From Parabacteroides sp. (GTDB lineage: Bacteria; Bacteroidota; Bacteroidia; Bacteroidales; Tannerellaceae): a stretch of DNA of 40,192 nt. The notes below the pieces were generated by a model. That model had not been told where the DNA came from, searched no databases, and saw only the letters and a program-made list of their open reading frames with translations. Within the stretch, counting starts at the first letter, position 1, and every line of letters starts with the position of its first letter. This document shows positions 5,155 to 25,640 of the stretch, piece after piece. The DNA lies in the NCBI GenBank assembly GCA_017937385.1, contig JAGBDR010000080.1:1-40192 (forward strand), in the 5' to 3' direction. A program made the translations under genes and the position numbers.

Positions 5155-5236
5155 AATTGACAATTAATAATTGACAATCGGCAACCGATAATTGACAATG
5201 CTTTTTAATTGTCAATTGTCCATTGTCAATTGTCCA
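5155..5236. repeat. Heptamer-based inverted repeat (TTGACAA type)
   Basis: The spacer between the regulator and acyl-CoA synthetase genes is filled with copies of AATTGACAAT on the left half and ATTGTCAATTG on the right half, so transcripts could fold into an imperfect hairpin. It shares its unit with the repeat at 13891-13989. There is no T run, so it is not a standard terminator. Confidence 0.75.
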
Positions 5237-5237
5237 T

Positions 5238-5792
5238 TTATAAGATGATTGCCAGAAAACTGACTTTCTCTCCATCAAGTGCCTTCATCCCGTGAGGCAG
5301 TTCGGAGTTGAAATAGATACTGTCTCCCTCTTCCAGTATCAGGTCTTTGTCGTTGATCTGTAGAAGCATACGGCCTTTCAGTACCATATTGTACTCTTGT
5401 CCGGGATGTGAATTCAGATAAATCGGGGTTTCGTCAGGAGTCGGATGGACGGTGACCATGAACGGGTCTGCTTTCCGGCCTGCGAAACCGGCGGCAAGCG
5501 ACTGGTACTTGTAGGCTTTGGTTCGTTCTACGGCAATGCCTTTCCCTTTGCGGGTAATGAAGTAGCTGCTCATTTTAGGTTCGTCACCGAACATCAGGGT
5601 GGTCAATTCTACGCCGTAGGCTTGTGAAATCTGATGCAATACACTTACTGAAATATCAACAGTACCGCTTTCCAGCTTCATATACTGTTCGGGAGTCAGG
5701 TTGCAAACCCCGGCCATTTCTTCAGGTGTAATTTCCAGTGCATCCCGAAGTCCGGCCAAACGCTCCGCAATTTGTTTTATCTGTTCGTTCAT
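5238..5792 (-). CDS. XRE-family regulator with C-terminal cupin domain
   Basis: A 184-residue cytoplasmic transcription factor. Residues about 8-62 form a Cro/CI-type helix-turn-helix (LAGLRDALEITPEEMAGVCN, then YMKLESG). Residues about 110-182 form a small-molecule-binding cupin with the HPGQEYNMVLKGRM and GDSIYFNSELPHGM motifs. It is the first gene of a probable operon with the acyl-CoA synthetase and the transcarbamylase. A -7-like box (TAAATTTG, minus strand, 5822-5829) lies 30 bp upstream of the start. The ligand is unknown; by context it may be the substrate or product of the adjacent synthetase. Confidence 0.88.
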   Translation of the reverse strand: MNEQIKQIAERLAGLRDALEITPEEMAGVCNLTPEQYMKLESGTVDISVSVLHQISQAYGVELTTLMFGDEPKMSSYFITRKGKGIAVERTKAYKYQSLAAGFAGRKADPFMVTVHPTPDETPIYLNSHPGQEYNMVLKGRMLLQINDKDLILEEGDSIYFNSELPHGMKALDGEKVSFLAIIL

Positions 5793-13883: not shown

Positions 13884-13890
13884 GAGAATG

Positions 13891-13989
13891 GACAATTGAG
13901 AATTGAGAATTGACAATTGACAATTGACAATTGGAAGGGGGCTGTCAGGCGGTAAATAATTGTCAATTGTCAATTGTCAATTCTCAATT
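13891..13989. repeat. Long inverted repeat of TTGACAA heptamers
   Basis: The left arm (about 13891-13933) has tandem TTGACAA units, with TTGAGAA variants at its outer end. The right arm (about 13957-13989) has the complementary units in mirrored order, including the matching TTCTCAA variant. The arms can pair over roughly 30 bp around a 23-nt GC-richer centre. An ATTG within the right arm sits at the -33 position of the following promoter. Confidence 0.88.
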
Positions 13990-16498: not shown

Positions 16499-17680
16499 TC
16501 ATGCCACATTGTTGGTAAAGTCTTTCTTCCCGTTGAACATCCTGTAAATGCGGACATAGATGTCGTAGGCCGGTTGGGCGATTTCCAACAGGGGAAGCCA
16601 GGCCGTCAACGGTTTTTGTTGCAGGAGCAGGGCCGACTTCTTATATACGACCGCTTTGGCCGCGAAGCGGAGGAGCAAAAGCGCTGCCGCCCATACCGGG
16701 AGCAACCCGTTGCCGGTAACTCCGAGGGCAAAGGTGGCGATTGTCGCAAGCCCGAAAAACAGATCGCTGGCGGTTCCCGTCCGGTAGAAAAACAGGGAAC
16801 AGCCTTTGTAGAAACGTTGGGTCGCGGCGCGGGAGGCTTTCATTTCTTTCCAGGTGCCGAAGTCTTCTATGGGGTTCATCTCAAGGATGGAATCGGGTGC
16901 GAACTGCACCTGCGTATTGGTGGAATCAGCCACTTCGTTGATGAACAGGTCGTCCGCTCCGGCATGGAGGTTGAGCGATTTGGAGTAGCCCTTGTGGGCG
17001 AAGAACAGTTGCTTGCGGTAGGAAAGGTTCCGGCCGTTTCCCGTGAAAGGATGGCGGGAGAGGGCGGAGGCGATCATTTGCAAGCCATTCGTCAGGTTGT
17101 CGTAGGCAATCAGTTTGTGCCGGAACCCCTTGCTATGCCGATAGGCGCAGAATCCTAAAAGGACCTCCGTTCCGGGCGTGTAGGAACCTGCCATCGTCCG
17201 GACCCATTGGGGGCTGAGCGGATGGCAGTCGGCTTCGGTGAAGAGGATGAGGTCGTGGCGGGCCGCCTTGATTCCCATCGTGAGCGCGAGTTTCTTATGG
17301 CTCAGGTATTGGGTGTCTACCGGCACGTAGGTGTAGTAGAGGTGTTTGTATTCATTTGAAAAGAGCTTCAGGACGTCTTCGCTCTCGGCGTCGGAACCGT
17401 CGTTGACGACGATGACCTCATAATCCGGATAATCCTGGTTCAGCAATGCCGGCAGGTTGTTGCGCAAGTCATCCGGATTGCCGTGTGCATAGACAATGAC
17501 GGAAACCGGTTGCTCTTCCCCGCCGGCCGTGGCGCGGAGCGGGTTCCCGTTTTTTTTCGCGGCGCGGAGCGGGCGGGCATAGATGACTATATAATAAAGT
17601 ATTTGTATGATAAACAACACGCCGGTGATTCCGGCCAGGAGCTGTTCGAGGGGAGAGAATGTCAGTAAATTTTCGCTCAT
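16499..17680 (-). CDS. Membrane-anchored family 2 glycosyltransferase
   Basis: A 393-residue inner-membrane glycosyltransferase. An N-terminal membrane segment (about 13-34) precedes a GT-A domain. VSVIVYAHGNPDDLRNNL and VIVVNDGSDAESEDV bind the nucleotide, LILFTEADCHPLSP carries the acidic metal-binding motif, and AGADDLFINEVA and RAATQRFYKGC resemble the late ED and Q/RxxRW-type catalytic motifs. Two to three C-terminal hydrophobic segments (about 310-370) follow. It likely transfers a sugar to a lipid-linked or cell-surface glycan; donor and acceptor are unknown. It stands alone and has a minus-strand -7 box upstream. Confidence 0.88.
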   Translation of the reverse strand: MSENLLTFSPLEQLLAGITGVLFIIQILYYIVIYARPLRAAKKNGNPLRATAGGEEQPVSVIVYAHGNPDDLRNNLPALLNQDYPDYEVIVVNDGSDAESEDVLKLFSNEYKHLYYTYVPVDTQYLSHKKLALTMGIKAARHDLILFTEADCHPLSPQWVRTMAGSYTPGTEVLLGFCAYRHSKGFRHKLIAYDNLTNGLQMIASALSRHPFTGNGRNLSYRKQLFFAHKGYSKSLNLHAGADDLFINEVADSTNTQVQFAPDSILEMNPIEDFGTWKEMKASRAATQRFYKGCSLFFYRTGTASDLFFGLATIATFALGVTGNGLLPVWAAALLLLRFAAKAVVYKKSALLLQQKPLTAWLPLLEIAQPAYDIYVRIYRMFNGKKDFTNNVA

Positions 17681-17705
17681 CGGTATTCAATTGTCTTTCG
17701 TGGCG

Positions 17706-17713
17706 CAAATGTA
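17706..17713 (-). promoter_or_regulatory. -7 box of the glycosyltransferase gene
   Basis: TACATTTG on the minus strand matches TAnnTTTG, 25 bp upstream of the start at 17680. The -33 box is weak. Confidence 0.45.
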
Positions 17714-17765
17714 CGGATGATTTTTGATTTTGTTGCAGTAAAATGGTGCCCCGTCCGGAGAAAAG

Positions 17766-18084
17766 GCTATCTTTACCCTGTCAAATGGTTGACAGGGCGC
17801 ATGAAAATGCGTCTTATTGTGATAAAATGAATATTTGCCCACCTGTTTGCCTGTTTTATACCCTATAAAATGGTTGAACGACCGGTCTTTTATCTGTTTT
17901 ATACCCTGTAAAATGCATTACAGGGCGGTCTTTAATCCATTTTACAGGGTGCAAAATGCGTTTTTGCCTGCCGTTTCGTCTGTTTTATACCCTGTGGAAA
18001 TTGGATTCTTCTGGATAAACATCCTTTTTATAGGGTGTGTTTTTATTGTTTAAACTTATATCTTTTATTTTATAGGGTATAAAT
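17766..18084. repeat. 43-bp-period palindromic array upstream of the DUF6261 gene (locus D)
   Basis: Units with a TTTTATA or TTTTACA core followed by CCCT or GGGT begin at 17851, 17894, 17937, 17980, 18023 and about 18066, almost exactly 43 bp apart, with a more degenerate unit at 17766. The best units are palindromes of the form TTTTATA-SSS-TATAAAA, where the central three bases are CCC or GGG, so orientation flips between units. Extra ACAGGG half-sites (about 17792 and 17920) sit 16 bp after a CCCTGT. The last palindrome ends one or two bases before the ATG at 18085. There are no unique spacers or cas genes, so this is not CRISPR. It fills the 404-bp gap 17681-18084. Confidence 0.85.
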
Positions 18085-18879
18085 ATGGAAATACAAGATT
18101 TTAATTTACGCCGCTTGCTCAATAATGAGTATTTGGCATTCAGCCGCGAGTTTGAAGCATTAATCGAAAAACTCGGTCCGGCGACATTGGGCGTGGAGGC
18201 GGTTTTCGGACAATTCAAGACCGCGCTCCAGGCCTTCGACGACAGCATCGTGAAAGTGCGGAAAAGCGCTCTTACGGCTCAGATGCGTGAAAGTGACAAA
18301 CTGCGTGACAACTACCACATCGGTATTCTGGAACAGATCCAGACCGCGAAACGGCACTTCGACCCGGAGGTGCGGGCGGCGGGCGAGCGCATGGACCCGT
18401 TGTTGTCTGCCTTCCAGAGCGCCCAGCTGCGCTCGTTTGACGATCAGACGGGAGTCACGAACAACTTCTTGCAGGAGTTGCAGGCGGACAAGTACAAGGC
18501 CGACGTGGAGAAACTGAATCTCGGCGGGTGGATCGCTGCCCTGAAAGAGGCGAACGGACGTTGTGCCACGCTGACGTCAGACCGCACGGGCGAGCGTACC
18601 ACGCAAGTGCAGAACCAGACGACGGCCGTCACCCGCCCGTTGGCCGACAAGGCATACACCGACTTGGTGAAACGCCTCAACGCCCTTTGTCTCATCAACG
18701 GTGATGCGGACTATGCCGACCTGATCCCCTATTGGAACACCCGTATCGACCACTACCGGACGGTCATTTCCCGCCGCCTCGGTGCAGGGAAAGGCGGCAG
18801 CACCGGCTCCGGCGACAACGCTCCCAACCCGCCAACCGGCGGAGGAGGCGGGGAGGAAGAACGCCCCGGCGAATTATAA
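18085..18879 (+). CDS. DUF6261 family protein
   Basis: A 264-residue protein that I recognise as DUF6261, a family known mainly from Bacteroides and Parabacteroides. It has no signal peptide and no hydrophobic segment. Residues about 1-235 are rich in amphipathic helices (for example NNEYLAFSREFEALIEKLG and YADLIPYWNTRIDHYRTVIS). Residues about 236-264 are a Gly/Pro/Glu low-complexity tail with a run of five Gly. No catalytic motif is visible. It is transcribed away from a 43-bp-period palindrome array whose last copy touches the start codon, and it ends at a strong bidirectional terminator, so gene and array form a self-contained cassette. Function is unknown; binding to its own array is a hypothesis. 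Confidence 0.85.
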   Translation: MEIQDFNLRRLLNNEYLAFSREFEALIEKLGPATLGVEAVFGQFKTALQAFDDSIVKVRKSALTAQMRESDKLRDNYHIGILEQIQTAKRHFDPEVRAAGERMDPLLSAFQSAQLRSFDDQTGVTNNFLQELQADKYKADVEKLNLGGWIAALKEANGRCATLTSDRTGERTTQVQNQTTAVTRPLADKAYTDLVKRLNALCLINGDADYADLIPYWNTRIDHYRTVISRRLGAGKGGSTGSGDNAPNPPTGGGGGEEERPGEL

Positions 18880-18885
18880 AAAACG

Positions 18886-18918
18886 AAAAAGCGGAGAGGG
18901 CAGGTCTCCGCTTTTTTT
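18886..18918. terminator. Bidirectional terminator between DUF6261 and lysA
   Basis: An 11-bp perfect stem (AAAAAGCGGAG / CTCCGCTTTTT) with a 9-nt loop is flanked by A and T runs, so it can terminate both the DUF6261 gene (plus) and lysA (minus). Just upstream for lysA, 18931-18952, lies a second hairpin with one G-T pair. Confidence 0.88.
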
Positions 18919-18930
18919 ATGGTGTGGAAG

Positions 18931-18952
18931 GAGGCGTAGCACGCTACGTCTC
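18931..18952 (-). terminator. Hairpin directly after the lysA stop
   Basis: GAGACGTAGC / GCTACGCCTC pair with a 2-nt loop and one wobble, immediately 3' of the lysA stop. It lacks its own T run and probably works with the next hairpin at 18886-18918 or stabilises the 3' end. Confidence 0.5.
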
Positions 18953-20113
18953 TTACAACGTATCCGAATAATAAGCCGTCGGCAGCTTCCGGCAGTTATA
19001 TTGCGAGGCCATCACTTCGCCGTATGCGCCGGCGGAGCGGAGGGCGATCAGGTCGCCGCGGTGGGCGCGGTTCAGTTCGACCTCTTTGCCGAACACGTCG
19101 GACGATTCGCAGATCGGGCCGACAACGTCATACACGTCGACCGCTTCGTCGCTGGTGATGTTCTCCATGCGGTGATAGGCGTCGTACATGGCGGGGCGGA
19201 TCAGTTCGGTGAAGCCGGCGTCCAGGATGCAGAATTTCTTCGTCTCTCCCTCTTTCACATACAACACTTTTGAAATCAGCGAACCGCATTGCGCGACGAT
19301 GGAACGTCCCGGCTCGAAGTGCACCTGTTGGCCCGGGCGGAGCTGCAACAGCTTGTTGAATACGGCGAAATAGTTGTCGAACGCCGGAATGGGCAGATGG
19401 TTCGGGTGGTAATAGTCGATACCGAGGCCACCGCCGAAGTTCAGGTTCTCCACTTTGATACCACGCGCTTCCAGTTCTTCCTGGATTTCATTGACCCGGA
19501 TGGCCAAGGCGCGGAAAGCCGCCATGTCGGTAATCTGCGAACCGATGTGGCAGTGGATGCCGATCAGCTTGACGTGCTCCAGACGGCTGGCCTGGTCTAA
19601 CACCTGTCCGAGTTGGCTCAGGTTGATACCGAACTTGTTTTCCTTCATGCCGGTCGTGATCTTGGCATGCGTATGCGCGTCAACTTCCGGATTGATGCGG
19701 AGGGCGATCGAAGCCACTTTGTTCTTGGCGGCAGCCAGCTCATTCAGGATTTCCAGTTCGGCGGCCGATTCGACGTTGAAACAGAAGATGTCGTTGTCCA
19801 GCCCCAAATTGATTTCCCAGTCCGCTTTGCCGACACCGGCGTACACGATTTTACCGGCCGGGAAACCGGCATCGAGTGCCGCCTGTATTTCACCGCCACT
19901 CACGCAGTCGGCTCCCAAGCCATACTCGGCGATGATCGACAAGATTCGGGGATTGGCATTCGCTTTGATGGCATAGTGGACGTGATAGCCATACTTGCCC
20001 GCTTCCGTTTTCACCGTGTTGAGTGTCTCTTTCAACAGCTTTATGTCGTAAAAATAGAACGGAGTCGCCAGTGATTTGAACTTTTCTGTAGAAAATGTGC
20101 CTTTTAGTATCAT
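18953..20113 (-). CDS. lysA: Diaminopimelate decarboxylase
   Basis: A 386-residue PLP enzyme (fold type III) converting meso-diaminopimelate to L-lysine, the last step of lysine biosynthesis, in the cytoplasm. HYAIKANANPRIL carries the PLP lysine, LNFGGGLGIDYY is the glycine-rich phosphate-binding loop, FEPGRSIVAQCG and GPICESSDVFGK (with the active-site cysteine of the dimer partner) follow. Length is slightly short for the family but complete. It follows lysC on the same strand with a 179-bp spacer containing a strong terminator and a possible antisense RNA. No consensus promoter is visible for lysA itself. Confidence 0.95.
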   Translation of the reverse strand: MILKGTFSTEKFKSLATPFYFYDIKLLKETLNTVKTEAGKYGYHVHYAIKANANPRILSIIAEYGLGADCVSGGEIQAALDAGFPAGKIVYAGVGKADWEINLGLDNDIFCFNVESAAELEILNELAAAKNKVASIALRINPEVDAHTHAKITTGMKENKFGINLSQLGQVLDQASRLEHVKLIGIHCHIGSQITDMAAFRALAIRVNEIQEELEARGIKVENLNFGGGLGIDYYHPNHLPIPAFDNYFAVFNKLLQLRPGQQVHFEPGRSIVAQCGSLISKVLYVKEGETKKFCILDAGFTELIRPAMYDAYHRMENITSDEAVDVYDVVGPICESSDVFGKEVELNRAHRGDLIALRSAGAYGEVMASQYNCRKLPTAYYSDTL

Positions 20114-22956: not shown

Positions 22957-23028
22957 TTTATTATCTGACTATTATATTGTTCTTGATTCATTCGTATGCG
23001 GCTTCCGACCTTTTGGCATCCGTCTCCG

Positions 23029-23103
23029 GTTCCATCGGCATGGAACAAAGGTTTCATGAGCATGGAACATAAATTTCATGGGCATGGAACTGCCACTGCC
23101 TGC
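23029..23103. repeat. Three direct repeats with 22-bp period inside the his operon (locus C)
   Basis: GCATGGAAC occurs at 23038, 23060 and 23082, exactly 22 bp apart. The first two units also share TTTCATG. An inverted GTTCCAT at 23029-23035 precedes the first copy, giving the same one-inverted-plus-three-direct layout as locus B. The array sits in the 155-bp hisF-hisIE spacer and would be transcribed. Confidence 0.75.
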
Positions 23104-25455: not shown

Positions 25456-25529
25456 GGTTCGGTAGTTCAGCTGGTTAGAATACATGCCTGTCACGCATGG
25501 GGTCGCGGGTTCGAGTCCCGTCCGGACCG
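25456..25529 (+). tRNA. tRNA-Asp (GTC)
   Basis: A 74-nt cloverleaf. Acceptor GGTTCGG pairs with CCGGACC (one G-U pair), discriminator G, anticodon loop CTGTCAC with anticodon GTC, and T-arm CGGGTTCGAGTCCCG. The CCA end is not encoded, as is usual in this group. Confidence 0.95.
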
Positions 25530-25541
25530 CACATAATATTA

Positions 25542-25615
25542 GGTGCGTTAGTTCAGCTGGTTAGAATACATGCCTGTCACGCATGGGGTCACGGGTTCGA
25601 GTCCCGTACGCACCG
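25542..25615 (+). tRNA. tRNA-Asp (GTC), second copy
   Basis: A 74-nt cloverleaf almost identical to the preceding tRNA in its D, anticodon and T arms, but with a different acceptor stem (GGTGCGT pairing with ACGCACC). Anticodon GTC. Twelve bases separate the two genes, which share a promoter and a terminator. Confidence 0.95.
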
Positions 25616-25640
25616 CACTCTTAAGATTGCAAAATCAAGA

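Follow-up and report, generated by a model that had tools for sequence, protein, structure and literature searches.

The window analysed in this work is a stretch of 40,192 nucleotides of Parabacteroides sp. DNA, in which a DUF6261 gene lies directly behind a tandem array of palindromic units. The units were scored against the core pattern TTTTAYA-SSS-TRTAAAA (17 positions), and the features of the locus are listed below.

16499..17680, minus strand: flanking glycosyltransferase-like gene, in two relatives located immediately next to the decarboxylase gene, the cassette being absent there
17769..17785, no strand: array unit 1, degenerate, 13/17 to the core pattern, a direct repeat
17812..17828, no strand: array unit 2, degenerate, 10/17, in register with the 43-bp spacing
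17854..17870, no strand: dyad unit TTTTATA-CCC-TATAAAA, 17/17
17897..17913, no strand: dyad unit TTTTATA-CCC-TGTAAAA, 17/17
17940..17956, no strand: dyad unit with flipped centre, TTTTACA-GGG-TGCAAAA, 16/17
17983..17999, no strand: dyad unit TTTTATA-CCC-TGTGGAA, 15/17
18026..18042, no strand: dyad unit TTTTATA-GGG-TGTGTTT, 13/17
18068..18084, no strand: last dyad unit TTTTATA-GGG-TATAAAT, 16/17, abutting the start codon
18085..18879, plus strand: DUF6261 gene, 264 aa, product predicted to be all-helical, tail (242-264) of low confidence
18097..18114, plus strand: codons 5-10 (D-F-N-L-R-R), by alignment the putative counterpart of the segment that tracks array type in relatives
18886..18916, no strand: inverted repeat with 12-bp arms and a T-run, likely terminator, possibly bidirectional
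18953..20113, minus strand: flanking PLP-dependent decarboxylase gene, which we take to be lysA-like (context)

The array was confirmed as six dyads at 17854-18084, spaced 43, 43, 43, 43 and 42 bp from first to last, and both weaker units (17769 and 17812) lie upstream of them in register. The six units scored 94/102 against a maximum of 62 in 500 dinucleotide shuffles; a chance origin was therefore rejected, and the periodic array that the original prediction had placed upstream of DUF6261 is real. Its six units and their 43-bp period also stood, while the first five positions given for them were 3 bp early. In a period scan with one base of slack per step, high scores were obtained at 42-44 only, and TRF and a second repeat search both returned a period of 43. 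As had been proposed, the central triplet changes strand, being CCC at 17854, 17897 and 17983 and GGG at 17940, 18026 and 18068, and the last unit (end 18084) reaches the start codon of the gene (ATG at 18085). The predicted terminator fits the inverted repeat with its T-run, and its action in both directions is possible. A second, weaker dyad was seen by eye between the cores, and it was clearer in two other arrays of the same type. A coding-repeat origin of the array was rejected, since none of the periods 40, 41 and 43 is divisible by three; among the Treponema arrays a period of 42 is nearly universal, and some reading frames there run through the array without a stop (L103, L107 and L159).

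The window protein belongs to PF19775 (DUF6261) with an E-value of 3.3e-34 and 118.5 bits against a curated cut-off of 27, and a single copy was found in its genome. DUF6261 was its only Pfam match. The same family was matched by six relatives, whose other hits were weak, unrelated and below the cut-offs, and no transposase or nuclease family exceeded its Pfam cut-off in any of these seven proteins. The PADLOC and NCBIfam searches gave no match, including none to a toxin family. The structural model of the window protein was all-helical (pLDDT 89, pTM 0.70), with residues 1-10 confidently predicted and residues 242-264 at low confidence. Foldseek returned no match to it with E up to 0.001, and in the fold searches with this protein no DNA-binding protein was prominent and no match was specific. 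Furthermore, a relative (L092) was modelled (pTM 0.46) with non-helical residues 1-14, helices at 15-228 and a beta domain at 253-358. The best Foldseek match of this whole model was 4fmr (putative Bacteroides DNA-binding protein BVU_2165, E 1e-5), which we take to be HU-like. The match probably runs through the C-terminal beta domain, whereas the helical core gave no such match and the window protein has no predicted beta domain. This domain (L092 3757-4077) occurs in some DUF6261 proteins and has no Pfam match of its own.

Several other repeats were noted in the window and in the sampled genomes. Short arrays of 22-bp period lie at 130-191 and 23028-23090, the latter with a dyad around a GGG/CCC centre (TTTCATGGGCATGGAAC), and similar arrays occur in samples of genomes with or without DUF6261 (11 in G042, 12 in G011 and 10 in G000). 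They may represent a second repeat system with a partner; no recurrent partner gene was found among 115 flanking genes. Separate 21-bp arrays were also counted, nine in 400 kb of G042 (at L191-L193, L195, L203, L205, L206 and L208) against three each in the G011 sample (400 kb) and the G000 sample (329 kb). In addition, the window holds two nearly identical tandem tRNA-Asp genes (25456-25616) and tandem 7-bp repeats AATTGTC/AATTGAC at 5207-5238, 13887-13933 and 13958-13989.

Arrays upstream of other DUF6261 genes

Of 59 genomes searched, 28 contained relatives of the window protein, and the richest of them gave 44 matches. In a first TRF survey, arrays of 41-43 bp were present at 19 of 30 loci, with different sequences. 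Members of DUF6261 were found in Treponema MAGs, Segatella, Phocaeicola and Bergeyella as well (of 105 relatives, 80 were kept). The many genes in Treponema MAGs (L102-L170) are similar to Bacteroidota members, a likeness that suggests transfer between phyla. The window protein matched two short, unannotated phage records and nothing in plasmids, and a search with the family alignment A2 found one IMG/VR contig.

The final set comprised 183 distinct genes (L018, L023-L172 and L250-L319) after duplicates with identical core starts were dropped. For the pairing count, 174 genes with at least 300 bp of upstream sequence were used, and arrays with a period of 39-44 within 700 bp were accepted. An upstream tandem array of 40-43 bp was present in 142 of these 174 genes. 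The periods of 143 linked arrays were 42 (73 arrays), 41 (62), 43 (4) and 40 (4), with medians of 5.2 copies and 99 bp to the gene start. Among the 32 genes without a called array, the top autocorrelation lag (range 12-129) was 41-42 in 18, 80-84 in seven and 123-125 in three, so that 28 were periodic too and four did not fit; in two sets of control genes, a top lag at 40-43, 80-86 or 120-129 was found in 37/258 and 23/188 (12-14%). Moreover, 20 further loci from ten genomes were drawn from a phylum-wide search, in which 12 of 395 genomes had a match, the window's own included. Eighteen of them had a top lag of 41-42 or 82-84 on 700-bp stretches, a length other than that behind the control rates, and TRF arrays of 41-42 were called in 11.

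The expectation that other DUF6261 genes would also have periodic arrays upstream was thus borne out. What they share is a period of 40-43 bp and symmetry, and not the TTTTATA-SSS-TATAAAA motif that had been expected with them: a single motif common to all loci was rejected, since the sequences differ from locus to locus. A scan of 40 relatives for the exact window motif gave three other genomes with one site each, all with a different centre. In Treponema, 33 of the 41 linked arrays examined fall into three types. One locus has a second 41-bp array downstream of its DUF6261 gene (L059 3784-3914), with a sequence unlike that of the upstream array.

Arrays away from DUF6261 genes

Arrays of the window type were found at two more distant sites in the same genome by a genome-wide pattern scan; with one mismatch allowed, the pattern matched 14 times on each strand and its reversed form once. 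One of the two unlinked arrays lies on contig C8 and the other on C94. Both start beside stop codons, their first half-site overlapping the stop codon by eye, and no DUF6261 gene is near either. The gene whose stop adjoins the C8 array is presumably SusD-like. BLAST of the C8 array against its own genome returned the three array regions and one weak 18-base match.

Two further types were followed genome-wide. In G042, a genome with 38 DUF6261 matches, three more strong loci of the L089 type were found, none of them with a DUF6261 gene within 1.5 kb. The L081 type has nine loci in G042, one of them linked by gene positions (a weak tenth is of the L089 type), and five loci in G019, where two DUF6261 genes have related arrays; none was found in G011, G008, G009 and G024. 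For these three types, 2/3, 3/4 and 8/9 of the arrays are therefore away from a DUF6261 gene, so the cassette is not self-contained as originally proposed.

Arrays were also counted in bulk samples. In 400 kb of G042, 26 arrays with a period of 40-42 were counted, three of them adjoining DUF6261; the three DUF6261 genes in this sample each have an array. If this sample of two contigs is typical, the 38-copy genome would hold about 240 arrays. In 400 kb of G011, a relative with no DUF6261 match, there was no array of 40-43 and one of 44, and in 329 kb of the window genome there was one array, of period 43. For matching, 29 arrays (periods 39-44) from 400 kb of G042 were compared with the 27 linked arrays known for its 38 DUF6261 genes. 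Twelve matched a linked array at 40 bits or more, three of these being linked arrays that matched themselves. Of the 26 unlinked arrays, nine thus had a linked counterpart and 17 were unmatched. Four arrays of the sample matched arrays of other genomes, and none matched permuted arrays at 40 bits. Unlinked intergenic arrays lay within 40 bp of 16 of the 27 neighbouring 3' ends but of only 4 of the 19 neighbouring 5' ends (23 arrays, with simple ORFs of at least 100 aa taken as genes).

A majority of arrays away from DUF6261 genes had been named beforehand as an outcome that would count against the original prediction. It was observed for the three types above, and it is read here as action in trans, because the 400-kb sample of the DUF6261-free G011 contains none of these arrays and because the L081 type, sought in five other genomes, recurs in G019 only. 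The dependence of dispersed arrays on the protein gene was thus judged from one sampled genome without DUF6261 and from one array type in five other genomes.

The locus itself is subject to turnover. In G012 and G020, the genes that flank the window cassette are side by side, with no DUF6261 match between them and no array in the stretch read. In G013 a DUF6261 remnant remains (L023), which matches from residue 60; its protein start and array are both absent. In G047, a different array and a 41%-identical protein lie between the same flanking genes. The cassette is therefore present in the window genome, absent in G012 and G020 and decayed in G013. In two pairs, L285/L291 and L286/L292, the segment and the array type were kept, with copy numbers of 8.1/6.0 and 8.2/6.2.

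The arrays and their proteins resemble the REP/BIME systems, which are described in PMC2817692 as dispersed intergenic palindromes, some in regular arrays, with the gene of a RAYT protein beside its cognate repeats; REP abundance follows the presence of the RAYT gene, and repeats and protein coevolve. DUF6261 is alike in its dispersed palindromic, protein-dependent repeats and in the position of the protein gene beside its cognate repeats. It differs in its regular tandem arrays of 40-43 bp upstream of the gene, in the coupling to a six-residue segment described below and in the number of paralogues, up to 44 per genome and mostly with their own repeat. Moreover, the protein is predicted to be all-helical and matches no transposase family, whereas a RAYT is a transposase of IS200/IS605 type, and the inverted REPs on both sides of a RAYT gene have no counterpart at the window locus, where the array is upstream only. 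The architecture of DUF6261 thus resembles that of REP/RAYT, of which it is not a member.

Even so, the arrays might be selfish repeats that the DUF6261 protein propagates; the pair would then work like REP/RAYT, and gene regulation would be incidental. The dispersed families where DUF6261 is present, the gain or loss of the cassette at an orthologous site and the proximity of dispersed arrays to stop codons would agree with this, as would the conservation of several polar residues within the helical core. The explanation is nevertheless unlikely, given that no transposase or nuclease family was detected above the Pfam cut-offs and that the window array flanks its gene on one side only.

DNA or RNA as the acting form of the arrays

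The array units have a main dyad and, in many of the printed examples, a second dyad offset by roughly half a period. In 42 of 103 arrays the consensus unit had a dyad with 7/8 pairs or better, against about three expected from shuffles; the other 61 fell short of this. The second dyad and its half-period spacing were only mildly enriched. In total, 665 palindromes were counted in the arrays, compared with 366-395 in column-permuted arrays. On inspection by eye, the units of 18 printed arrays contained no hypervariable block.

If the array worked as RNA, it would be co-transcribed with the gene and the protein would bind the resulting row of hairpins, similar to type III toxin-antitoxin or guide-RNA systems. 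The position of arrays directly upstream of the gene at the short gap given above, with locus-specific sequences, is compatible with this, and the window array has a strong computed RNA fold (z -6.5), as palindromes do. Mismatched pairs in RNA stems would be expected to show wobble; over all dyads, 202 were G.T and 206 A.C, and in the 59 arrays with strong dyads there were 75 G.T against 81 A.C (19:20 when counted by array), without a G.T excess. A slight excess may be hidden in the overall ratio, since the column-permuted controls lean to A.C (672 against 504 G.T, summed over five). The tRNA control for this test was weak, with 7 G.T and 2 A.C in 105 pairs of 15 predicted tRNAs at the best of five offsets.

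The positions of TAnnTTTG, which we take to be a promoter-like motif, were also compared in 62 Bacteroidota arrays. The motif was found between the array and the start codon in 20 (antisense 7), more often than within 100 bp upstream of the array (10, antisense 8), the position that would be compatible with action as RNA, and at neither position in 33. In addition, the central CCC/GGG changes strand, most arrays of the three followed types are far from the protein gene, and in Rfam nothing reached the gathering score at 17600-19000 (the best, rox1, had 38.2 bits against 58); PADLOC gave no match either. Action as RNA is therefore quite unlikely. The balanced mismatches, the strand-flipping centres and the TAnnTTTG positions favour recognition of the arrays as DNA.

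Two known RNA-based systems were compared with DUF6261. In type III toxin-antitoxin systems, a repeat array lies directly upstream of the protein gene. DUF6261 is alike in this position but differs from these pairs (e.g., ToxIN; PMC8860590) in that no toxin family was matched in Pfam, PADLOC or NCBIfam, the dyads showed no wobble bias and the arrays of the types followed are mostly away from the gene. In TIGR-Tas, according to PMC12045711, each unit has two alternating repeats beside the gene of a Nop-domain protein, with variable guide spacers and 36-nt RNAs. Both have alternating repeats whose sequence is kept at one locus and changes from that locus to the next, whereas in DUF6261 whole units are conserved, array types are dispersed in trans, and neither a Pfam match to a Nop domain nor, in the 18 printed arrays, a variable spacer was found.

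The N-terminal segment and a possible mode of action

Overall protein similarity was a poor predictor of array type, with an array shared in only 21% of the pairs above 80% identity. Mutual information between residue and array type, computed for 33 Treponema proteins whose arrays are of three types, peaked at residues 6-11 (z 8.7-17.3; next best elsewhere 7.3). In a pair test on 780 pairs (40 Treponema proteins, ten genomes), an array was shared in 119 of the 151 pairs with at least four identical segment residues and in 10 of the 593 pairs with two or fewer, with r 0.71 against a maximum of 0.15 in 1000 permutations. Controlled for global identity, the partial r was 0.69 at residues 6-11, and at best 0.17 beyond residue 12. 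The corresponding shares were 17/22 and 2/101 between paralogues within genomes, and 102/129 and 8/492 between genomes. Array sharing correlated at 0.75 with the segment, at 0.13 with residues 1-5 and at 0.22 with the 100 bp before the ATG. That the protein does not read the array, and that segment and array are only neighbours inherited or recombined together, is highly improbable: the segment is encoded close to the array, and part of the Bacteroidota support comes from orthologous or recently duplicated pairs, but in Treponema linkage alone is insufficient because equally close or closer stretches correlate weakly, the signal drops beyond residue 11, and the coupling holds between paralogues of one genome as well as between genomes.

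In Bacteroidota pairs with a core identity of at least 55%, those with five or six identical segment residues shared an array in 7 of 8 cases and the others in 5 of 75 (p 1.4e-6), compared with 10 of 44 when five or six residues agreed in the control stretch 12-17. Core identity reaches 90% or more in four of the seven sharing pairs, which are mostly orthologues. When pairs of 90% identity or more were left out, the shares were 3/4 and 2/70, and one of these three sharing pairs (L062/L069) has a misplaced start. In two window scans of Bacteroidota, the segment reached 0.088 (window 5), below 0.131 at window 179, and 0.009 (window 6) against 0.103 for the top window. In the anchored test on Bacteroidota pairs below 40% identity, segment and half-site were unrelated (r -0.016). 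A general hexamer-to-half-site code, which eyeballed matches of distant proteins had suggested, found no support in this test. Between Treponema and Bacteroidota, the half-site test gave r 0.122 at the segment, a joint top window with z 2.4, on non-independent pairs.

Individual pairs illustrate the coupling. L077 and L079 are 91% identical, have two of six segment residues in common and do not share an array, theirs being unrelated by BLAST. The orthologues L282 and L287 differ in two segment residues, and their arrays are diverged yet related (72 bits). L081 and L319 are 72% identical over their length; their segments are not the same, and in the main dyad each half-site differs by one base. 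Judged from these comparisons, array type tracks the six-residue N-terminal segment strongly in Treponema and modestly in Bacteroidota, and by alignment codons 5-10 of the window protein would be the corresponding segment. Such a coupling is expected if a DUF6261 protein binds its own array.

It is probable that DUF6261 proteins are sequence-specific DNA-binding proteins, each with the linked array as its own target and with dispersed arrays bound in trans. The six-residue segment just before the first helix would serve as the reading head, carried by the helical bundle. Dyads every 41-42 bp (four helical turns) would place the bound molecules, probably dimers, on one face of the DNA. The linked array is close to or overlaps the promoter and start region, and its occupation would most likely repress the gene itself. 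Arrays of the same type at other sites, often immediately after a stop codon, may be bound by this protein as well; once coated, they could act as a block to transcription or as an insulator, or draw remote loci into contact. Of the roles proposed for dispersed arrays, two are ranked highest, chromosome folding and a roadblock to transcription (or insulation) behind genes, and selfish spread is ranked third. In genomes rich in DUF6261 genes, many such networks of protein and arrays would exist side by side, each separate from the others.

ParB/ParR-type proteins on centromere-like arrays and plasmid iterons also use regular sites on one DNA face and are often autoregulated. DUF6261 differs from them because no known centromere-binding family was matched and because its genes are chromosomal and multi-paralogue, with many dispersed arrays. 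In the titles and abstract beginnings of the open-licence literature, no description of a pairing of DUF6261 with arrays was found, and the one paper there that contains 'DUF6261' concerns another subject, to go by title and abstract beginning. On the sequence comparisons made here, the DUF6261 proteins look like an undescribed family of sequence-specific DNA-binding proteins.

A family listed as of unknown function marks a repeat-array system in Bacteroidota and in some Treponema. If the proposed binding is true, each genome could have a large set of mutually orthogonal DNA-binding proteins, and naturally occurring pairs that are nearly identical but differ in target would allow the specificity to be read directly. 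A large class of intergenic tandem repeats would be explained as well, with a role in the control of transcription at gene ends or in chromosome folding. More tentatively, and with some doubt on our part, DUF6261 may be a new class of DNA-binding proteins with a swappable six-residue specificity, of which up to about 40 independent networks would organise or insulate a single chromosome, with a protein-DNA code that occurs naturally, can be read and may be open to reprogramming.
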